From: Streptomyces sp. NBC_00154
GTDB taxonomy: Bacteria; Actinomycetota; Actinomycetes; Streptomycetales; Streptomycetaceae
Length of the DNA: 64,000 bases
Direction: 5' to 3'
Assembly: GCF_026342835.1 (NCBI RefSeq)
Contig: NZ_JAPEMI010000001.1
Coordinates: 7,632,501-7,696,500 of the forward strand
Below, piece after piece: positions 1,064 to 57,116 of this stretch. Below the pieces are notes generated by a model. It made no database searches. It was not told where the DNA came from and saw only the letters and a list, made by a program, of their open reading frames with translations. Made by a program: the position numbers and the translations under genes. The stretch's first letter is position 1, and every line of letters begins with the position of its first letter.

Positions 1064-1687
1064 ATGGAGCCCGATGTGACAGCGCCTTCCCAGACGGGGG
1101 GTCGGCAGGGTCCGGCTGAGGATGCGGTCCTGGTGCTGGAGTCGCGAGGTGATCCGCAGCAGTTTGCCGAACTGTATGACCGGTATGCGCCGGACATCCA
1201 CCGGTACGTTGCCAGGCGTCTGGGGGACTGGCTGGCGGATGACGTGACGGCGGAGACCTTCCTGGTCGCGTTTCGTCGGCGGTATCGCTTCGACCCGGCC
1301 CGGGGGAGCGTTCGCCCGTGGCTGTACGGGATCGCCAGCAATCTGATCGCCGGGCACCGGCGATCAGAGGTGATGCAGTACCGGGTGCTGGCCAGGACAG
1401 CCGTAGACCCGGTGGTTGTGGACTACCACGACAGCACGGACAGCCGGGTCGCCGCCGCGGCAGTTAGCCGCCAGCTCGCCGCCGCGCTCGCTCATCTCTC
1501 CACAGGTGACCGGGATGTGCTGCTGCTGATCGCGTGGGAGTCCTTGTCCTACGACGAAGTGGCCCAGGCGCTGGGCATCCCTATCGGGACGGTCCGCTCC
1601 CGGTTGAACCGCGCGCGCAAGAAGGCACGGAAAGCACTCGGTGGCTTTGACCCCACCACGGCATGCGAGGAGTTCACCCGTGGATGA
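1064..1687 (+). CDS. ECF-type RNA polymerase sigma factor
   Basis: This 207-residue protein has both sigma regions of the extracytoplasmic-function class. Region 2 lies about residues 35-100 (DRYAPDIHRYVARRLGDWL, then TAETFLVAFRR and WLYGIASNLIAGHRR). Region 4 lies about 140-195 (LSTGDRDVLLLIAWESLSYD, then IPIGTVRSRLNRARKKARK). It should direct RNA polymerase to a small set of promoters. I start at ATG 1064 because a GGAG lies about 11 bases upstream; GTG 1055 would leave almost no spacing. The stop overlaps the next gene's GTG by 8 bases, so the two are translationally coupled. Confidence 0.92.
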   Translation: MEPDVTAPSQTGGRQGPAEDAVLVLESRGDPQQFAELYDRYAPDIHRYVARRLGDWLADDVTAETFLVAFRRRYRFDPARGSVRPWLYGIASNLIAGHRRSEVMQYRVLARTAVDPVVVDYHDSTDSRVAAAAVSRQLAAALAHLSTGDRDVLLLIAWESLSYDEVAQALGIPIGTVRSRLNRARKKARKALGGFDPTTACEEFTRG

Positions 1688-2768
1688 AATGACACTGCTG
1701 CGGCAGATGCGTGCCGAAATGCCCCGCCCGGACAGGGGCCGGCTGGTGACAGGCCGGGAACGGCTGCTGACAGCGATCAGTCAGGAAGCAGCCGAGCATC
1801 GCGCTCCTTCGATCCGGCAGCCTTCCGAAAGGAATGACATGACCTTCAACAAAGAGCGAGACGCCGACGCGTCACCGCTCACCGAAGGCGCCCGCCTCCG
1901 CTCCCGTACTGGTCGCCGACCGGTGCTGCGCATGGCTCTGGCAGCCGCCGCTGCCGTCGCCGTCGCTGCTACCGGGGTGAGCGTCCTCGACGACAGCGCC
2001 CCGGGCACCGTCGCATCGCCGGCCGTTGACTCGCCCCGCATGCAGCCGGTCAACGCAGCAACCGTGCTCAATGCCGCTGCCGTACGTGAGCGTGAACATG
2101 AGAAGGCCGTTGCCCCGCGCGGCGATCAGTTCATCTACACGAAAGAGACCGTGAAGGAGACAGAGCGCAAGTCCGGCACGACTAAGTCCTATGTGGACGA
2201 GAACTGGAAGTCGGTGAACGGCTCCCAGCGCTCGTGGGTCATGGAGATCGGCAAGGGCTGGTGGGCTCCGCCGGCAAAGCGCCACGAGAAAGTCTGGCCG
2301 CCGGCCGACTGGGGCTCCCTCGCAAAGCTGCCCACTGATCCGGAAAAGCTGATCCTTGCCGTGCGGACGCCGGACGGCCCGCCCAAGACACAGCCGAAGT
2401 CGGTTGCCGAAATCAAGAGGGAGGAATGGCCGGACATCCACTTCGCGCTGGCCGGTCTGCTCTACCGGACACCGGTAATGCCCGAGGGGCTGCGGCCTGC
2501 CGCCTTCGAGGCACTCGCCATGATCCCAGGCATTACTGCCACCCCCGGCGTGAAGGACGCCAAGGGGCGGGCTGGTATCGCGGTCTCCTACAAGGATGAC
2601 AGCCAGGAATGGACCTGGGGCACGGTATTCATCTTCGCCAAGGACACGCACGAGTTCCTCGGCTTCAAGAGCACCCGAACCTCCGACAGCGGCGGCGGGA
2701 AGACCTACGACCAGCTCTCCTCCCTCGACAGCTACGCCGTCGTGGACAAGGTCAAGCAGCGCCCGTAG
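1680..2768 (+). CDS. CU044_5270 family protein, membrane-anchored partner of the sigma factor
   Basis: The protein has 362 residues. It begins VDEMTLLRQMRAEMPRPDR, a typical CU044_5270-family N-terminus. A single hydrophobic segment follows near residues 75-100 (VLRMALAAAAAVAVAATGVS), and a long polar extracytoplasmic domain holds most of the rest. Genes of this family usually sit directly behind ECF sigma factors and are thought to be anti-sigma or sensor-like partners; the precise role is unproven. The GTG start lies inside the sigma gene, which supports a two-gene operon. The start is chosen for that overlap and family length. Confidence 0.85.
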   Translation: MDEMTLLRQMRAEMPRPDRGRLVTGRERLLTAISQEAAEHRAPSIRQPSERNDMTFNKERDADASPLTEGARLRSRTGRRPVLRMALAAAAAVAVAATGVSVLDDSAPGTVASPAVDSPRMQPVNAATVLNAAAVREREHEKAVAPRGDQFIYTKETVKETERKSGTTKSYVDENWKSVNGSQRSWVMEIGKGWWAPPAKRHEKVWPPADWGSLAKLPTDPEKLILAVRTPDGPPKTQPKSVAEIKREEWPDIHFALAGLLYRTPVMPEGLRPAAFEALAMIPGITATPGVKDAKGRAGIAVSYKDDSQEWTWGTVFIFAKDTHEFLGFKSTRTSDSGGGKTYDQLSSLDSYAVVDKVKQRP

Positions 2769-2773
2769 TCATA

Positions 2774-2816
2774 GCCGCTGGTCGAGGTGCCGGGAGGCGG
2801 CGCCTCGACCAGCGGC
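2774..2816 (+). terminator. Strong hairpin after the sigma/CU044 operon
   Basis: A perfect 14-bp stem pairs 2774-2787 with 2803-2816 and can extend inward by four more pairs including one G-U. It begins 6 bases after the stop codon. There is no clear T-run, which is common for actinobacterial terminators. It probably ends the upstream operon. Confidence 0.7.
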
Positions 2817-2863
2817 GCGAGTACCCACGGCAATTCCTGGCCCGGCCGGCCACATGTGTTTGT

Positions 2864-2894
2864 GCAGGGGGGGCCTGGAAGCAGGCCCCCCTGC
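2864..2894 (+). terminator. Second hairpin, GC-rich
   Basis: About 12 bp of G-rich against C-rich stem (2864-2876 with 2883-2894, one bulged G) closes a six-base loop. It lies between the sigma operon and the response-regulator remnant and could back up the first hairpin. Confidence 0.5.
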
Positions 2895-2915
2895 TGGACT
2901 GGAACTGGAGACCAG

Positions 2916-3180
2916 ATGCCCCGCGTTCTCGTGCTGGAGGATGATGAGAAGCCATCGGCGAAACCCTCTCCTACCTGCTACGCAGGGAGGGCTTCGAGAC
3001 CGGTGTCGCCATCACTGGTCCGAATGCACTGCAGCAGTTCCACAGCGACGGGGCCGACCTGATCCTCCTGGACTGGGTCCTGCCCGGCCTCTCCGGACTC
3101 GAGGTGTGCCGCGAACTGCGCCACATCTCAAACGTCCCGGTCATCATGGTCACCGACAAGGTCGAGTCCACGTACAAGAA
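2916..3180 (+). pseudogene. Broken response regulator (receiver domain)
   Basis: Starting at ATG 2916, the frame reads MPRVLVLEDDE, the acidic start of a two-component receiver domain. A frameshift near 2950 moves the rest to another frame: LSYLLRREGFETGVAITGP, then DLILLDWVLPGLSGLEVCR with the phospho-acceptor Asp, then VPVIMVTDK with the conserved Thr. The similarity stops at the first CRISPR-like repeat near 3186, so the DNA-binding domain is gone. No histidine kinase gene is nearby. The break appears to be a deletion joining this gene to the repeat array. Confidence 0.75.
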
Positions 3181-40228: not shown

Positions 40229-41875
40229 CTAACCCTCCTGCACCACGGGGCGCGCGTGCTCGACGATGTCGTCAATGAGGACGACCTGGTGTCCGACGGC
40301 GGCGAGCAGCGAGGCGGCGATCGCGGCCCGGAAGCCGCTGCGGCAGTGCACCCAGTGCTCGGCCTCCGGCAGGGACACGATGGCATTGGGCAGTTCGGGC
40401 AGCGGGATGTGGCGGGCCCCGGGCAGGTGGCCGGAGCGCCACTCGCGGTCACTGCGGACGTCCAGGACCTCCACCTGTCGCCCGGGCCGGACAGTGGCGA
40501 GGGTGGCGAAGTCGGATCGCGGGTAGGAGGCCAGCTCTTGTGGGCCGACCCATTCGAGCGGGTTTCCGACGGCGGCAGCCGCAAGATGGTCGAAGCCGAT
40601 CCGCAGCAGCTCGATGCGGGCTGCCTGCAACTCGTTGTGGTCGGCGGCCAGCAGGGTGACGGGGGCGTCGAAGGGCACCAGCCAGCCGAGGTAGGTGGCA
40701 AGGGAACCGGAGGCGTCGAAGTTGACCGTGCCCGGCAGATGGACCGGCGCGTAGTCGGCTCGCGGACGCACGTCGACCACCCACTCGCCCGCTGTGATCC
40801 GGTCGGCCAGTTCGGCCGGATCCGCAAGCCTTGGCCCGGGGAGCGAGGCGCGGGGCGGCGGCCCGGCAGCGTTGATCGGCGCCATCCGGCGGTAGTACGC
40901 GGGGCAGGGCTCCAGACCCGTCAGTGTCCCGGTCACGAAGGCGTCTTCGGTTTGGCTGAAGACAGGGTTCACGGCCCGCTCGCGGCCGATGGTGGAGCGT
41001 TGGACCGCGCCGACGGTCGTCGCGGCGCAGAAGCTGCCGAAGCCGTGGGTCGGCAGGATGATGGTGTCGTCGGGTAGTACCTCGGCCAGGTGGCGCACTG
41101 ATCGGTACTGCTGGTGGGCGAGCGGCTCGGCCAGGTCTGCACCCATGAGGTCGGTACGGCCCGTGGTGCCGTACAACAGGGAGCCGCCGGTGCATACCAG
41201 CCGAGGCGCCCCGTCGGCGGGCGCGAAGGCGTAGGCGAGATGGTGGTCGGTGTGCCCGGGTGTGGCGATCACCTGGATCCGCAGCTTCCCGGCCGTCAGT
41301 TGGTTGCCGTCGCCGATCCGGACGGCGTCGAAGCCAAGGCGCGGCCCGGCTGGCACCGCGTACGCCGCCTGGCAGCGGCGGGCGAGCTCCAGACCGCCTG
41401 TCACATAGTCGTTGTGCAGGTGGGTCTCCACGACCGTGTCGAGCCGCAGGCCGCGGTCCTCGAGCACACTGGTGACGCGCTCCAGGTCACGTTGCGGGTC
41501 CACGGCGACCGCGACCGACCCGTCCGTGATCAGGTAGCTGCGGTTCCCGAGGCTGAGCGTGGAGATCTGGATGATCTCCACGCTATCGGGCAGCCGCTCG
41601 GAGAGCCGCAGCTCGGCCTGGGTGGCCCGGCCCGGCTCCGCCTCGTCCGGCATCTCCGTGACACCACGCGGCGAGAGCGCCTGCAAAACCCAGTGCCCCG
41701 GGGGCACGTAGAAGCGGAATTCCCCAATCGCGGAGGTGACTACCTCACCGACGAACTCCCCTGCCGGATCGAGCAGCCGGACCCAGACGCCCGCGGCCGG
41801 CCCGTCGGCGACCTGGACGCGGCCGGTCACGACGGTTCGGGTGGTGGGTTTGGGATCCACGGGTGTCGCGGTCAT
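40229..41875 (-). CDS. DUF1416-MBL persulfide dioxygenase-like-double rhodanese fusion
   Basis: This 548-residue protein fuses four modules. Residues about 10-85 match DUF1416 (TVVTGRVQVADGPAAGVWVR, GEVVTSAIGEFRFYVPPGHW), normally the separate small protein SseC beside SseA. Residues about 100-335 are an ETHE1-like MBL domain (VVETHLHNDYVTGG, IATPGHTDHHLAY, PTHGFGSF). Then come an inactive rhodanese domain (about 355-440) and an active one with Cys511 (HWVHCRSGFRAA). It should handle persulfides or thiosulfate, oxidising and transferring sulfane sulfur. It lies 43 bases after sseA on the same strand. Confidence 0.9.
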   Translation of the reverse strand: MTATPVDPKPTTRTVVTGRVQVADGPAAGVWVRLLDPAGEFVGEVVTSAIGEFRFYVPPGHWVLQALSPRGVTEMPDEAEPGRATQAELRLSERLPDSVEIIQISTLSLGNRSYLITDGSVAVAVDPQRDLERVTSVLEDRGLRLDTVVETHLHNDYVTGGLELARRCQAAYAVPAGPRLGFDAVRIGDGNQLTAGKLRIQVIATPGHTDHHLAYAFAPADGAPRLVCTGGSLLYGTTGRTDLMGADLAEPLAHQQYRSVRHLAEVLPDDTIILPTHGFGSFCAATTVGAVQRSTIGRERAVNPVFSQTEDAFVTGTLTGLEPCPAYYRRMAPINAAGPPPRASLPGPRLADPAELADRITAGEWVVDVRPRADYAPVHLPGTVNFDASGSLATYLGWLVPFDAPVTLLAADHNELQAARIELLRIGFDHLAAAAVGNPLEWVGPQELASYPRSDFATLATVRPGRQVEVLDVRSDREWRSGHLPGARHIPLPELPNAIVSLPEAEHWVHCRSGFRAAIAASLLAAVGHQVVLIDDIVEHARPVVQEG

Positions 41876-41918
41876 CTCTGATCCATCTCGCGCAGCCCCG
41901 CCTATGCTTCCGGCGGGG

Positions 41919-42752
41919 TCACTTCTCGATCGGAACGCCGACCATCGAGCCGTACTCGGTCCACGAGCCGTCGTAGTTCTTCACGTTGGGGTGGTCGAGC
42001 AGTTCGTGGAAGACGAACCAGGTGTGGGCGCTGCGCTCGCCGATCCGGCAGTAGGCGATGGTGTCGCGGTCGAAGTCGACGCCTGCGTCGAGGTAGAGCG
42101 CCCGGAGTTCCTCGTCTGTCTTGAAGGTGCCGTCGTCGTTGGCCGCCTTGGACCAGGGGACGTTTCTGGCACCGGGGATGTGACCACCGCGCTGCGCCTG
42201 CTCCTGCGGCAAATGGGCGGGGGCCAGCAGCTCACCTGAGAACTCCTGGGGGGAGCGGACGTCGATCAGGTTCTGGTTCTGCTGCCCGATCGAGGCCAGC
42301 ACCTCGTCACGGAAAGCCCGGATCGAGTAGTCCGGCTCCTTGGCGGTGTAGCCGGTCCTCGGTCGCTGCGGCACCTCGTCGGTGAGCGGCCGCGACTGCA
42401 GTTCCCAGATTTTGCGACCGCCGTCGAGCAGGCGCACGCGCTCGTGCCCGTAGACCTTGAAGTACCAGTAGGCATAAGCGGCGAACCAGTTGTTGTTGCC
42501 GCTGTACAGGACAACGGTGTGGTCGGGCGTGACGCCGCGCTCTGACATCAGCTCCTCAAAGCGCTTCTGGTCCACGAAATCGCGGCGGACCGGATCCTGC
42601 AGATCGTTCTTCCAGTCCAGCTTCACCGTGCCCGGGATGTGACCGGTGTCGTAGGCGCTCACATCCTCGTCGACCTCGGCGATCACCATGCTCGCGTCGT
42701 CCACGTGCTGCTGCACCCAGTCGGCGTCGACCAGGGATTGGTCACGGCTCAT
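41919..42752 (-). CDS. sseA: Thiosulfate/3-mercaptopyruvate sulfurtransferase (SseA-like)
   Basis: The 277-residue protein starts at ATG 42752 (MSRDQSLVDADWVQQHVDDA), with AAGG seven bases upstream. It has two rhodanese domains: an N-terminal inactive one (GHIPGTVKLDWKNDLQDP) and a C-terminal one with the active loop C235-R-I-G-E-R-S (TIAYCRIGERSAHTW), followed by NYDGSWTEYGSMVGVPI. CRxGxR loops are typical of thiosulfate sulfurtransferases. It moves sulfane sulfur to cyanide or thiols in the cytoplasm. It heads the operon with the fusion protein and is preceded by the palindrome GGGGTATACCCC. Confidence 0.92.
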   Translation of the reverse strand: MSRDQSLVDADWVQQHVDDASMVIAEVDEDVSAYDTGHIPGTVKLDWKNDLQDPVRRDFVDQKRFEELMSERGVTPDHTVVLYSGNNNWFAAYAYWYFKVYGHERVRLLDGGRKIWELQSRPLTDEVPQRPRTGYTAKEPDYSIRAFRDEVLASIGQQNQNLIDVRSPQEFSGELLAPAHLPQEQAQRGGHIPGARNVPWSKAANDDGTFKTDEELRALYLDAGVDFDRDTIAYCRIGERSAHTWFVFHELLDHPNVKNYDGSWTEYGSMVGVPIEK

Positions 42753-42769
42753 GGGCATGCCTTTCACTC

Positions 42770-42781
42770 GGGGTATACCCC
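42770..42781. promoter_or_regulatory. Perfect palindrome GGGGTATACCCC before sseA
   Basis: A 12-bp perfect palindrome lies 18 bases before the sseA start codon. CsoR/CstR-type copper and persulfide sensors recognise sites rich in ATACCC/GGGTAT half-sites, so it may be an operator for a persulfide-sensing repressor. No csoR/cstR gene is in the window. The half-sites are inverted relative to the usual order, so the assignment is tentative. Confidence 0.45.
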
Positions 42782-43061
42782 TCTTCCAGCACAACCCCTG
42801 CCTCGGAAGGTGTCAACATCAGGATCCGCCTGGCAACTACAGGACCCCGCTCCAAAGCTGGAGCGCGCCGGTCGCAGGGCCGCTGGAAGACGTCGCTGGT
42901 GCTGACGACGGCTGGAGGCTCGCTCCAAGCCCCTCAGCGCCGCTTTGGCATCTGGCGTGCGCCGTAGCGGGCGGCCCCGGATCCCGCGGGCGGTGGCCTC
43001 TACCGGCCGGTCACATCGAGCTCGGCGTATATGCCGGCGGCGTAGTGGCTGGATTCGTTGC

Positions 43062-43332
43062 TCACCAGTTCGTAGCGGCCGGGCCGCGGCGGCGAGGGTG
43101 AAGACGCCGGAGCCGGTGTCCTGCCAGCTGGCGGGGAAGACGATCACGGGTGCGTAGGTGAAGAACTGCTCTCCGTGAGCGGCTCGCAGGATCGCGTTCC
43201 AGGCCACGGGCCCGAGGGCCGCGGCGAGCGCACCGGTCGCGGCGACGGCGCGGCTGCCCGGGTGGCGGCGATGAGGACGGCGGCGAGGACGGCCGACAGC
43301 GCGGCGCCGTAAACGACCTGGACATCCCACAT
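43062..43332 (-). pseudogene. Frameshifted small membrane protein
   Basis: On the minus strand MWDVQVVYGAALSAVLAAVL begins at 43332. The sense then passes to another frame: VAATGALAAALGPVAWNAIL, FTYAPVIVFPASWQDTGSGV and FTLAAAARP. The pattern of hydrophobic helices and the WQDTGSGVFTL segment suggest a small multi-pass actinobacterial membrane protein. At least one frameshift breaks it, and it overlaps the OLD-like fragment on the other strand. Confidence 0.45.
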
Positions 43333-43518
43333 GCCACCCTGCTGGACCTCGACTACGGCAGGGCCGGAGCGGGACCGGCTTGGCTACGCGACGCCTGCAG
43401 CCGACTAAGAGCGTCCGCCAGTAGGCGTGAGTTGTGGCTAAGCGGCTTCGGTGAAGTTCGCCGACGAGTGCTGGTCACAGGTTGAGCCCGTCAGCAGCGC
43501 ATGACAGGCTCGTGCCCC

Positions 43519-44121
43519 ATGATTGATGACTTTGCGAAGGACTACCTGCACAGCGACCTGCGAGAGATTCGCAAGGCGATGCTCTGGAAGCTCGACGGGC
43601 TCTGTGAGTACGACATCCGTCGCCCGCTGACCTCGACAGGTACCAACCTTCTTGGCCTGGTCAAGCACCTATCGCTTTGGGAGGCTAGGTACTTCGGCGA
43701 GGTCTTCGGCCGACCGTTCCCCGAACTTCTGCCCCGGTGGGACGACACCGCCGAGCGCGGCGCCGACCTGTGGGCGACCGAGCACGAGACGCGCGAGGAA
43801 ATCACCGACCGCTACCGTCGCGTATGGGAACACTCAGATGCGACGATCACCACCCTCACCATCGACTCCCCCGGCCACGTGCCCTGGTGGCCACGCCCCA
43901 ACGTGAAGCTGTTCAACATCCTGGTCCACGTGCTCACCGAGACCAGCCGGCACGCCGGACACGCCGACATCCTGCGCGAACAACTCGACGGCTCGACTGG
44001 GACAACAGCCGAATACGCGACTGATCAGCGCGACGCAGCCTTGTGGGATGCCCACGGAGCGACGATCGAGCGAGCTGCCAAAGCTGCCGCCGAGAAGGAC
44101 CAGCACTTGACTTCGCCGTAG
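43519..44121 (+). CDS. DinB-family protein (DUF664), passenger of the IS
   Basis: The 200-residue protein from ATG 43519 reads MIDDFAKDYLHSDLREIRKA, LTSTGTNLLGLVKHLSLWEA and HVLTETSRHAGHADILREQL. This is the four-helix DinB/DUF664 fold with three His likely to bind metal (KHLSLWE, ETSRHAGHAD). Actinobacterial members are often mycothiol-dependent transferases or detoxification enzymes. ATG 43501 in the same frame is an alternative start. The stop lies four bases from the convergent transposase stop. The gene is intact inside an IS, suggesting it gives the element or host some benefit. Confidence 0.88.
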   Translation: MIDDFAKDYLHSDLREIRKAMLWKLDGLCEYDIRRPLTSTGTNLLGLVKHLSLWEARYFGEVFGRPFPELLPRWDDTAERGADLWATEHETREEITDRYRRVWEHSDATITTLTIDSPGHVPWWPRPNVKLFNILVHVLTETSRHAGHADILREQLDGSTGTTAEYATDQRDAALWDAHGATIERAAKAAAEKDQHLTSP

Positions 44122-44125
44122 CCGC

Positions 44126-44977
44126 CTAGCGGATGCGCGGGCTGGCGGGCCGGGAGTCCCAGCGGTGGGTGTACCAGGCCCTGCGGATGAGGCTGCGGAC
44201 GGTGATGATGGCGGTAGCCAGCTGAAGGAAGAACTCGGTGCAGGCGCGGCGGCGTTCGGTGTTGCGGCGGAGTCTGCCGAAGTTGTTCATCCACGAGTTT
44301 GTGCGCTCTACGACCCAGCGGCCGTCGGTCTGGATCGGGGTTTTCGTGCCTCGCTTCGAGATCCGGGGTGTGATGTCACGCTCGGCCAGGTTGCAGTAGA
44401 CGGGCTGGTAGTCGTAGCCGGCGTCCAGGCTCAAGGCCGGGTGCTGCGGGACATGTCCGAGCTGCTCGGTCAGCTCGGCGAAGGCGTCGAGGGTTTGGGG
44501 CAGCAGCGTGTGGTCACGGATGTTCGCTCCGGCGGGCACCGTGACCACGGGTATGCCGTAGCTGTCGGTGAGCTGGGATCTCTTGAGGCCCTGCTTGCCC
44601 CGGTCCACCGGGGACCGGCCGACGCATTCGCCGCCCGCGGGTGCCTTGGTGATACAGCCGTCCGCGGCCAGGTCCTCAAGCTCAAGGCCCACCATCTGGT
44701 CGTAGGCCCGCAGCACCGCGAGGACCAGGTGGCCGGCGACACCGGCAGTAATCCACTCGTCCCGTCGGCGCCGGATCGTCGTGGCCGAACACGCCCCGTC
44801 TGCGACCCGCTCATAGCCCATCCCCGACACCAATGCCAGAACGAGCCGGTCGAAGACCACCGCGTCCTCGATCCGCGGATTGTGGCAGCCCAGCGGGTGC
44901 GTGACCGGCCGGGCGGGCAGCAGACGGAGGAACTCCTCACGGATCGGAGTGATGATGGACGCAGGCACAACTGACAC
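44126..44977 (-). CDS. IS5-family transposase (single frame)
   Basis: The 283-residue transposase has the IS5/IS1031 layout. The N-terminal part is VVFDRLVLALVSGMGYERVA. The DDE residues lie in LAADGCITKAPAGGECVGRS, LSLDAGYDYQPVYCNLAERD and RWVVERTNSWMNNFGRLRRN (Glu in VER). The frame appears intact, so the unit may still be mobile. The gene starts 104 bases inside the right inverted repeat. A related but distinct transposase lies at 56247-57098. Confidence 0.92.
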   Translation of the reverse strand: MSVVPASIITPIREEFLRLLPARPVTHPLGCHNPRIEDAVVFDRLVLALVSGMGYERVADGACSATTIRRRRDEWITAGVAGHLVLAVLRAYDQMVGLELEDLAADGCITKAPAGGECVGRSPVDRGKQGLKRSQLTDSYGIPVVTVPAGANIRDHTLLPQTLDAFAELTEQLGHVPQHPALSLDAGYDYQPVYCNLAERDITPRISKRGTKTPIQTDGRWVVERTNSWMNNFGRLRRNTERRRACTEFFLQLATAIITVRSLIRRAWYTHRWDSRPASPRIR

Positions 44978-45411
44978 GAACTCTCCCGATGGTCACAGAG
45001 CGTAGAAAACTCCATGATCATCAAATTCGTGCCCACCGTGCCGCCAACTTCACCACATCCATGACCTACTGGCGGACGCTCTAAAGGAAAGCGGGCTAGA
45101 GCCGTTGGAAGGGCTCAAAGGCTACGACGAGGCCAGCGACATCCGCGACGATCTCGAGTCCAAGGAGATTCGCACGATCCTGCAGCACCTGCGCACGTTC
45201 GGGATCTTCTACGCCGCGCGGCTTGACCTCGACTACGCCATGCTGCAGAAGTTCCAGGCCGCCTACAAGCATCCTGAACCGGGCGACTGCGGCCCACACT
45301 CCAGCGACCCCACCAACACGGTCATGGAAGAGGGGGGAACCGGGCTGGCCTACTGGAGCAACGAGGAACGCCTTGAACTGCTGCGTTGGTACCGCTACCT
45401 GTTCGCTATCG

Positions 45412-45492
45412 GTGAGTCGGCAGGAGCGCGAGTGCCGTCCGTTGCGACTGGTCAAGCCGAGCTTCTCCAAGCGGCCGAGTTTCACGGCTCCC
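45412..45492 (-). repeat. Partial second copy of the LexA-like winged-helix sequence
   Basis: On the minus strand this reads VKLGRLEKLGLTSRNGRHSR followed by SCRL. It corresponds to QLGRLEKLGLISRNGRHWRS in the gene at 11613-11948, and most bases match over about 65 positions. It has replaced the end of the OLD-like fragment. It may be a recombination scar. Confidence 0.6.
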
Positions 45493-45559
45493 GGGGCAGC
45501 AGGTGGCGGAGGTCTGGGCATCAGTTGGTACCACTGGTACCATGCCGGAACCCAGGGCC

Positions 45560-45835
45560 ATGAACCTACGCTTCCCCGATCCCGAGCAGCGGGCCGCCAT
45601 CGCGGCCGCCGCAAAGCAGGAAGGGGTCAGCATGCAGGAGTACATCCTGTCCGCCGCCTACGCCCGCGCCACCGCCATCGAGGACAGGTTCCTGGACAGT
45701 TTCAAGGAATCGATGGCTCGCAGCGGCGCCGCGTTCGCCGCCGAGCCCAGCAGCATCGACGCCACCGCGGAGCAGCGTGCCGCTGAGCAGCAGGCGCGCG
45801 AGTTCGAGCAGCAGGGGCAGGGCCACGCCGCGTGA
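45560..45835 (+). CDS. Putative antitoxin (ribbon-helix-helix-like)
   Basis: The 91-residue protein from ATG 45560 reads MNLRFPDPEQRAAIAAAAKQ and EGVSMQEYILSAAYARATA, a ribbon-helix-helix-like DNA-binding N-terminus. A Glu/Gln/Ala-rich tail (AEQRAAEQQAREFEQQGQ) probably grips the partner. ATG 45542 is an alternative start. Its stop overlaps the start of the Fic/Doc-like gene by four bases (GTGA), the usual antitoxin-then-toxin order. Confidence 0.7.
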   Translation: MNLRFPDPEQRAAIAAAAKQEGVSMQEYILSAAYARATAIEDRFLDSFKESMARSGAAFAAEPSSIDATAEQRAAEQQAREFEQQGQGHAA

Positions 45836-46378: not shown

Positions 46379-46737
46379 ACCCACCGGCAAATGGATCACT
46401 TGAGGCGTCGGGTGGTGGGGCGGCCGTCCCAGCGGTAGCGGCTCGTCGAGCGTCGAATGAGCATGCGGAGCGTGACGAGTGCGGCGGCGAGGTAGAGGTA
46501 GAAGTCCACGACATCGCCGCTCCTCTCGGTGCAGCGCCGCAGCTTGCCGTAGTCGTTCATCCACGAGTGCGTGCGCTCCACCACCCAGCGCTTGCCGGCC
46601 TGGATCGGGGCGGGCACGCCCTTGCGGGCGATCTCGGCCGAGAATCCCAACTCGCCGATCAACACACGTGACTTGGTGCTGTCGTACCCGCGGTCGAGGT
46701 TAACGTTGACGGCCTCCGGCATCGCACCGGCCAACTG
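46379..46737 (-). pseudogene. 3' half of an IS5-family element
   Basis: An intact IS end, GACCCACCGGCAAATGG (46379-46395) preceded by TAA, is followed by the C-terminal transposase (minus strand): NVNLDRGYDSTKSRVLIGEL, RKGVPAPIQAGKRWVVERTH and SWMNDYGKLRRC. It is close to the intact copy at 56133-57116, sharing the IS end and the final residues RYRWDGRPTTRRLK. The 5' half was replaced by IS3 DNA at about 46737. Confidence 0.75.
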
Positions 46738-47075
46738 GGTCAAGCAGGACACGATCGACCGCGGACGGGAGGCGCCGGGCGAGCTGACGACGGCCGAACG
46801 CGAAGAGCTGCGTCGGCTGCGGCGCCAGAACCGTGAGCAGGCCGAGACGATCGAGGTACTGCGAAAAGCGGCGGTCTTCTTCGCGAAGGAGAGCGATCGA
46901 TGAGCGAGGTGTACGCGTTCATCGAGGCGGAGAAGACCACCCACGGAGTCGCTCTGTTGTGCCGGCTGCTGAAGGTGGCCCGGTCCTCTTTCTGCGCCTG
47001 GATGGCCGGCGAGCAGGCCCGCGCCGCCCGCCGGGCCGCCGACGACGCCCTGGCCCACGAGATAGCCGGCCGCGT
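46738..47075 (+). pseudogene. IS3-family orfA/orfB fragment
   Basis: The plus strand reads WVKQDTIDRGREAPGELTTA and RRQNREQAETIEVLRKAAVF, then FAKESDR-stop (end of OrfA). The overlapping OrfB start reads MSEVYAFIEAEKTTHGVALL and CRLLKVARSSFCAWMAGEQ. The catalytic rve domain is missing. The fragment sits between IS5 and IS110 pieces. Confidence 0.7.
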
Positions 47076-47175
47076 CGTCGGTGATGTGCCGCTTGGCCAG
47101 GAGCCGGCCGGTGTCGTCGACCAAGGCGACGTCGTGCGTCCTCTCGGCCCAGTCGATGCCGCAGTAGATCAAGTT
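47076..47175 (-). pseudogene. N-terminal stub of an IS110-family transposase
   Basis: From ATG 47172 the minus strand reads MIYCGIDWAERTHDVALVDD, then TGRLLAKRHITDD, the DEDD-type N-terminus of IS110 transposases with the first Asp. It is cut after about 33 residues by the IS3 fragment. Confidence 0.75.
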
Positions 47176-56132: not shown

Positions 56133-57116
56133 GACCGACCGGCAAATGGCTACGTCGCTCGTTGGCTGACGGTCCCGGAAACGAGACAGGCACGGGCCCT
56201 GCGTGATCATGGAGTTCTCGACGCTCAGTGATCACGCGGAGGACCCGTGCCTGCGGTGCCATTTTGCCTGCTCGACCCCCTGTGGGACCAGTTCGCTGCT
56301 CTCCTGCCGGTGCGGGAGGCGTTCTCGGCGAGCCATCCGCTCGGGTGTCACCGCCGCCGGGTGTCGGACCGTGTCGTGTTCGAGCACGTCGTGCTGGCTC
56401 TGGTCCACGGTTCGGGGTACGAGCGGATTGCGAGTCCCGGGTGCTCCGACCGCACCATCCGACGACGCGTCAAACAGTGGGCTGAGCTGGGGATAGCACA
56501 ACGAGTACATGCCTTGGCGCTGGAAGCGTACGACCGCATGGTCGGCCTGGGTCTGGCCGAGATGTCGGTCGACGGCTGCATCACCAAGGCGCCGTCCGGC
56601 GGCGAGAAAGCGGGCCGCTCACCGGTGGACCGGGGCAAGCAGGGGCTCAAGCGCTCGGTCGCCTCCGATGCCTGCGGCGTTCCGCTCGGCATCGTCTCCG
56701 ACGGAGCCAACCGACACGATTCGCCCCTGCTCGGCCCGACTTTGGCGGCCGCCCGCACCCAAGTCGGGGCGATGCCCGAGTGCGTCAACGTCAACCTGGA
56801 CCGCGGCTACGACAGCGCCAAGTCCCGTGCCCTGCTGGCCGAGTTGGGCCTCACGGCTGAGATCGCCCGCAAGGGCATCCCGGCGCCGATCCAGGCCGGC
56901 AAACGCTGGGTGGTGGAGCGCACGCATTCCTGGATGAACGCCTACGGCAAGCTGCGGCGCTGCACCGAGAAAAACGGCATGGTCGTGGACTTCTATCTCC
57001 ACCTCGCCGCCGTACTCGTCACGCTCCGCATGCTCATTCGACGCTCGACGAGCCGCTACCGCTGGGACGGCCGCCCCACCACCCGACGCCTCAAGTGATC
57101 CATTTGCCGGTCGGTC
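56133..57116 (+). mobile_element. Complete IS5-family (IS1031-like) insertion sequence
   Basis: The perfect 17-bp inverted repeats GACCGACCGGCAAATGG (56133-56149) and its complement (57100-57116) are flanked by TAA on both sides (56130-56132 and 57117-57119). The 984-bp unit holds one transposase gene and has no passenger. That makes it a useful size comparison for the DinB-carrying element at 43409. Confidence 0.92.
56247..57098 (+). CDS. IS5-family transposase
   Basis: The 283-residue protein from the start at 56247 reads VVFEHVVLALVHGSGYERIA, with DDE residues in EMSVDGCITKAPSGGEKAGR, VNVNLDRGYDSAKSRALLAE and RWVVERTHSWMNAYGKLRRC. The frame is complete. It is the parent type of the fragment at 46379-46737 and a cousin of the transposase at 44126. 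Confidence 0.93.
   Translation: MPAVPFCLLDPLWDQFAALLPVREAFSASHPLGCHRRRVSDRVVFEHVVLALVHGSGYERIASPGCSDRTIRRRVKQWAELGIAQRVHALALEAYDRMVGLGLAEMSVDGCITKAPSGGEKAGRSPVDRGKQGLKRSVASDACGVPLGIVSDGANRHDSPLLGPTLAAARTQVGAMPECVNVNLDRGYDSAKSRALLAELGLTAEIARKGIPAPIQAGKRWVVERTHSWMNAYGKLRRCTEKNGMVVDFYLHLAAVLVTLRMLIRRSTSRYRWDGRPTTRRLK

Follow-up and report, generated by a model that had tools for sequence, protein, structure and literature searches.

Organization of the locus

Within the window, i.e. the whole 64,000-nucleotide stretch of Streptomyces sp. NBC_00154 DNA analysed here, positions 43409-45081 make up a 1673-bp unit in which a transposase gene and a DinB gene lie between one pair of outer IS ends. A preliminary description of this DNA had reported perfect 17-bp inverted repeats and TAA duplications around both genes, and had described the transposase and an intact DinB gene as convergent, with stop codons four bases apart. 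Both observations hold: GAGCGTCCGCCAGTAGG at 43409-43425 is the perfect complement of 45065-45081 (17/17 bp), TAA is present at 43406-43408 and 45082-45084, and the open reading frames occupy 43501-44121 on the plus strand and 44126-44977 on the minus strand. Absent from that description is a further pair of inverted repeats, at 43438-43458 and 44109-44129, situated at both DinB/IS junctions. The following features were assigned, with the basis of assignment in brackets where it applies:

43406..43408, no strand: TAA target duplication, left, of the IS5-family element (sequence; the empty site L095 reads TCA there)
43409..43440, no strand: downstream end of the IS5-family element, comprising the 17-bp terminal repeat and 15 bp with a copy of the stop codon (CTA, 43438-43440)
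43439..43440, no strand: left copy of the TA duplicated on insertion of the DinB cassette, within CTAG at the transposase stop codon
43441..44126, plus: DinB cassette, an IS630-type non-autonomous element of 686 bp without a transposase of its own (ends versus family consensus)
43441..43458, plus: left terminal inverted repeat of the cassette, AGCGGCTTCGGTGAAGTT (pattern and consensus)
43501..44121, plus: DinB gene (mycothiol S-transferase family, PF04978), 206 aa (ORF, Pfam)
44088..44126, minus: right terminal repeat of the cassette, encoding the last DinB residues and the stop codon (recurrence in other loci)
44126..44977, minus: IS5-family transposase, 283 aa, frame intact (ORF, Pfam, NCBIfam)
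44127..44128, no strand: right copy of the TA duplicated on cassette insertion, also supplying the first two bases of the minus-strand transposase stop codon
45065..45081, minus: IS5-family element, terminal repeat on the transposase-start side (inverted-repeat comparison)
45082..45084, no strand: TAA target duplication, right, of the IS5-family element (sequence; empty-site comparison)

The outer element and its insertion site

Terminal inverted repeats together with a 3-bp TNA target duplication characterize the IS1031-like group. The transposase of the unit matches DDE_Tnp_1 in Pfam (score 39.9, cut-off 23) and IS5_3 in NCBIfam (NF033580; 122 bits, cut-off 110), such that 43409-45081 combines an IS5-type DDE transposase, terminal inverted repeats and TAA on either side; the outer element is an ordinary IS5-family IS.

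As the preliminary description had proposed looking for, an empty site was identified in a relative. Plasmid NZ_CP108854.1 (L095) lacks the unit and is 97.3% identical to positions 40327-43409 and 97.2% identical to positions 45081-45404, its target reading TCA where the window has TAA. Because this plasmid possesses both flanks without the unit, the outer element represents a clean TNA insertion. The flanks joined with a single TAA give an open frame, and the earlier proposal that deletion of the unit with one TAA rejoins the flanking gene is independently backed by the empty site. Among 100 other genomes searched, two encode a counterpart of the joined flank protein in one long frame (663 aa, 63% identity), and 12 PLSDB records match it in one piece each, the best being NZ_CP108854.1 (93% over residues 1-118) and the remainder reaching at most 61% identity, with annotation mostly as AAA family ATPase. 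Since relatives possess a 663-aa frame, the unit seems to sit in the remnant of an AAA-ATPase gene. The interrupted gene (window about 43310-45563) is apparently a 3' part, and the empty-site plasmid is 97% identical across the region.

One-gene relatives of the outer element

Perfect outer repeats and an empty site cannot separate a nested cassette from a passenger built into the IS; looking for inner repeats and comparing with one-gene relatives can do so. We compiled 43 loci with related transposases, 35 from one scan of 84,980 species genomes and eight from genus searches and regions. None of the 43 has a match to DinB, even at an E-value of 1. Among the loci that include the transposase C-terminus, we counted an IS end as matching if it lay no farther than 120 bp past the stop codon and had no more than 3 mismatches in 16 positions; by this measure 31 of 40 loci carry a matching end (24 of 31 once identical copies are merged), and nine do not, eight of them showing at least five mismatches and the misses including L036, an 85% relative. 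Stop and end are 27-31 bp apart in L037, L050, L058, L070, L093 and L094, which are the closest relatives that have an end. The distance from stop to outer end in the window unit is 29 bp, the same as in L037 and L058, and positions 43405-43440 are 92% identical to the end of the same IS in L037. As the left end is thus the downstream end of the IS, including the CTA at 43438-43440, DinB sits exactly between two copies of the CTA stop codon. Excision of 43441-44128 in silico yields a 985-bp IS that aligns with the whole L037 element at 82% identity (987 columns, 10 gap positions), and the insertion site of the cassette is uninterrupted in L037, L058, L070 and L094. The window element therefore resembles one-gene IS5-family ISs of Streptomyces and Kitasatospora (L037, L039, L042 and others) in its terminal repeat and TNA-type flanks, but differs from them by DinB, which none of the 43 loci examined carries.

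The preliminary description had named an inner IS end between DinB and the transposase as what would speak against a built-in passenger. No such end is present, because the cassette separates the stop codon of the transposase from the IS's true downstream end, 43409-43440. One-gene relatives end soon after the transposase stop, hence DinB is clearly extra, as would also be expected had the IS lost its own downstream end and one-ended transposition reached a fortuitous end farther away, taking the adjacent DinB gene with it. We consider this explanation scarcely credible, given that the IS retains its own downstream end as the outer left end, with its stop-codon copy and 29-bp spacing, and that DinB is bounded by another element's repeats with TA duplications.

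A partial second copy of the same IS end was also observed in Kitasatospora mediocidica (L037, 624-757), oppositely oriented and roughly 2.1 kb away from the full copy.

Ends and insertion site of the DinB cassette

Read inwards, the cassette borders consist of CTA followed by AGCGGCTTCGGTGAAGTT on the left and CTA followed by GGCGGCTACGGCGAAGTCAAGTGCTGGTCC on the right, with TA as the duplicated bases. Other genomes of the genus contain a small non-autonomous family with these terminal repeats, TA followed by AGCGGCTNCGGYGAAGT. Against a 21-mer pattern, drawn up after the ends were seen, the inner repeats show 2 and 1 mismatches; with up to three mismatches allowed, the pattern matches twice in the window versus 0.01 matches expected, and none of 100 shuffled sequences had two. 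A consensus of 16 ends from outside the window, among which the L158 right end is shifted by a base and those of L126 and L129 are identical, matches at exactly 43438 and 44129 with 2 of 21 mismatches each, compared to six at the next-best site of the 64-kb window; it is not fully independent, because the family seeds came from the window's right end and L088. Throughout the strain's own 10.4-Mb genome, three sites match a 19-mer at 0 or 1 mismatch, two being the cassette ends and the third (C3:1028743) having no partner end nearby. Only this level is informative, since at up to three mismatches the genome gives 124 matches versus 86 for a control.

The left repeat matches over about 21 bp and the right one over 33 bp. 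The latter was first noticed when positions 44088-44124 matched other genomes on their own, occurring twice, inverted, in L088; approximately this segment recurs in L088, L089, L090 and L091, and beside DinB in L087. Two other readings of the repeat were rejected. Positions 44110-44125 (GGCTACGGCGAAGTC) were considered as a decayed inner IS5 end, i.e. a worn copy of CCTACTGGCGGACGCTC, which is ruled out by the copies in L088-L091 and by the family consensus, both of which identify the segment as the end of another element. A recombinase attachment site was also considered, L088 having a recombinase gene (PF07508) beside the repeat; Pfam assigned none of 10 larger ORFs near the paired ends of L161, L128 and L157 to a recombinase.

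With DinB as the only passenger between inverted repeats, no transposase inside and a TA duplication, the inner element corresponds to what is described as a mobile insertion cassette. Alternatively, DinB might have arrived by recombination, the inner repeats being remnants of unrelated MITE insertions beside it. L087, in which DinB is accompanied by the right end only, demonstrates that a solo MITE end beside DinB does occur. Both window ends, however, are inverted and lie exactly at the two junctions, with a TA duplication inside CTAG, and recombination is accordingly a very improbable source of the gene.

The cassette family in other genomes

Paired ends were identified outside the window in L088 (679 bp), L106 (590 bp), L157 (103 and 104 bp), L128 (104 bp) and L158 (about 1.83 kb), these lengths including the outer CTA. 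TA is the outer dinucleotide at 11 of 12 such ends, one end in L157 having TG. The family is rare: only 9 of 392 genomes, the strain's own included, match a 31-base pattern at up to three mismatches, and a 124-base MITE query (E-value 0.001) found matches, several of them partial, in 12 of 392, the strain's own not among them.

Kinship to IS630 is indicated by L158 (G169:C33:73000-77500), where positions 1187-3013 comprise an element with cassette-like ends and ORFs for HTH_32/HTH_33 and DDE_3, which we take to be domains of IS630-family transposases. It is the only family member with transposase domains; its right repeat is shifted by one base, the transposase is split over two overlapping frames, and a DUF6461 gene also lies inside the element. 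Tenzen and Ohtsubo (1991), to judge by title, reportedly found a preference for TA in CTAG. IS630-family elements are described in PMC2170065 as inserting at TA and duplicating it.

Searches for a cognate transposase with cassette ends in the strain's own genome were negative; the only IS630-like match there is 38% identical over 101 residues, has a second piece that contains a stop, and lacks matching ends nearby. PLSDB searches that used just the repeat or the 104-bp MITE turned up no more than one partial Streptomyces match, one of these searches giving only short matches in Phytobacter and Rhizobium. A scan of IMG/VR for the exact family pattern found nothing.

Several family members show arrangements of their own. 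The L158 element (1187-3013) is possibly a transporter IS of the IS630 family. Three members occur within 24 kb of one contig (L157/L161; G219:C179, about 87.3, 88.9 and 111.3 kb). Two of them are MITEs (103-104 bp) that lie in inverted order on either side of a DUF4241 gene, and the third is a 590-bp element with a small ORF. The 679-bp element of L088 (1191-1869), which has cassette-type ends and adjoins the recombinase gene, contains a weaker extra end at 1765; this suggests a 105-bp MITE as its right border, and so a two-MITE composite around a gene.

The DinB gene

By family profile, the DinB product is a putative mycothiol S-transferase-like protein, matching PF04978 (MST) over residues 16-164 with an E-value of 1.5e-39 and 136 bits (cut-off 27). 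Comparison with an annotated relative in L071 indicates that an alternative start at 43519 (200 aa) is possible. A search by sequence at an E-value of 0.001 found no solved structure.

DinB is common in the genus: DNA of the unit was matched in 144 of 150 genomes, and nearly all of the matches listed, about 15 in the transposase excepted, lie in the DinB part (66-88% identity). Another DinB copy, 74% identical, is present in the strain's own genome (C2:558872). Examination of 27 DinB loci revealed no close transposase match and a distant one (25-41% identical) in five (L020, L022, L024, L032 and L087). In L087, DinB and the right repeat (87% identical) occur in the absence of this IS; the left repeat is absent from the locus, and the outer dinucleotide there is not TA. 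With this locus holding a right end only, no second complete DinB cassette was found. Ratios of dN/dS for the window gene are 0.24 versus L087 (40 synonymous and 37 non-synonymous differences), 0.37 versus L007 and 0.35 versus L071, and DinB has therefore been under purifying selection.

Order of insertion and possible mobility of the composite

We conclude that 43409-45081 is very probably two nested mobile elements, an IS630-type mobile insertion cassette with DinB inside an IS5-family IS. A one-gene IS5-family element of about 985 bp entered a TNA site in the apparent AAA-ATPase gene remnant, duplicating TAA, as the empty site shows. The 686-bp non-autonomous IS630-type cassette, with DinB replacing a transposase, entered CTAG at the transposase stop codon and duplicated TA, as shown by the anatomy of the unit, by IS relatives that lack the cassette, and by ends at other loci that are related to those of the cassette. 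An IS630-family transposase presumably moved the cassette in trans, and the cassette would have arrived after formation of the IS, at this locus or an earlier one.

This differs from the view that DinB is a passenger built into the IS, which does not agree with the finding that another element, of IS630 type and inserted at the transposase stop codon, provides the ends on both sides of DinB. Joint entry of the two genes, also claimed previously, is not supported by the empty site, because insertion of the IS first and the cassette second leaves the same sequence.

A composite formed elsewhere may nonetheless have moved here as one 1673-bp unit, as a true transporter IS; this would be compatible with the nested origin and concerns the order of events only. 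The perfect outer ends, the intact target duplication and transposase frame, and an empty site showing nothing of the unit present before in a relative are all consistent with such a move. The same picture is expected, however, had the cassette landed in a resident IS, and no other copy of the composite has come to light. The strain's own 10.4-Mb genome holds one pair of perfect outer ends, and 35 transposase loci from the scan of species genomes lack DinB. Of 392 genomes of the genus, none of the other 391 shows the DinB/transposase junction, and the left junction was found in the strain's own genome only among 295 searched, in what was a sample of the genus with two candidates scored per genome, where copies may be missed; no PLSDB record covers 80% of the unit. 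We regard arrival as a single unit as rather unlikely.

Because the outer ends and the transposase frame are intact, the composite may be movable in cis: judging from sequence, the IS5 transposase may be able to move the whole 1673 bp, DinB included. The whole unit is perhaps a transporter IS in the making.

Stop codons at cassette borders

After insertion, the transposase stop codon reads TAG, its T and A contributed by the target and its G by the end of the cassette; the stop is restored, and the transposase and DinB frames therefore both stay intact. The four-base distance between the two stop codons arises because the right repeat of the cassette supplies the end of DinB and its stop.

In three of seven paired elements (window 43438-44129; L157, 2888-2991; L128, 1500-1603), a border TA lies in the stop codon of an ORF of at least 250 aa. 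This applies to 4 of 14 borders, versus 1.2% of all TA dinucleotides in the same sequences (27/2200), and the numbers are small owing to the near relationship of the L157 and L128 elements (89-91%). The four ORFs concerned encode the IS5 transposase, a protein with DAO/DAO_C domains, a DUF4241 protein and one without a Pfam match. A tentative and somewhat doubtful generalization would be that IS630-derived cassettes of Streptomyces capture ordinary genes (DinB in the window, small ORFs in L088 and L106) and favour the TA of stop codons, where this TA and the first base of the element would recreate a stop codon. The gene that is hit would thus be spared, and a cassette landing in the stop codon of another IS's transposase would convert a one-gene IS into a working transporter IS with both genes unharmed. 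If true, this would provide a general, damage-free route to transporter ISs, and the passenger would gain two independent routes of mobility.

Comparison with known systems

The whole is a nested insertion of already known kinds. Mobile insertion cassettes (MICs) such as MIC231 of Bacillus cereus and mic-qnrD likewise possess inverted repeats around a passenger gene, no transposase and a target duplication. MIC231A1 is described in PMC3913671 as mobilisable in trans by the IS231A transposase, and MICs are named also in PMC3129680. Unlike these, the DinB cassette has IS630-type ends with a TA target and an actinomycete host, and mobilisation in trans is presumed in its case. With IS630-family MITEs and IS630/Tc1-mariner elements (IS630, ISY100) the cassette shares the TA duplication and the CTAG context; HTH and DDE_3 domains are found in its longer relative L158, whereas the DinB cassette itself is without a transposase, and this only relative to carry one has two frames and the DUF6461 gene. 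To a transporter IS, a term used in PMC3129680, the unit is outwardly alike, being an IS with an unrelated gene between one IS's ends, but its passenger came as a separate element and the unit is known from one copy.

Among the titles listed in our literature search, none concerned DinB in an IS, or an IS630-type cassette in Streptomyces, a weak negative given thin coverage of subscription journals. With ends defined for an IS630-type cassette family in Streptomyces, gene capture and landing at stop codons become traceable in genomes. If the composite moves, it would represent a simple step from a one-gene IS to a transporter IS.

Other elements in the window

A second one-gene IS5-family element was identified at 56133-57116, with a length of 984 bp and TAA on both sides. 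The preliminary description had regarded it as a related single-gene IS; the element is real, with the size given there, but its terminal repeats differ from those of the element at 43409, and it is therefore not a sister copy. The window also contains, at 46396-47172 on the minus strand, a chimeric ORF with an IS110-type N-terminus (DEDD_Tnp_IS110, below cut-off) and an IS5-type C-terminus, which probably reflects the insertion of one IS in another.
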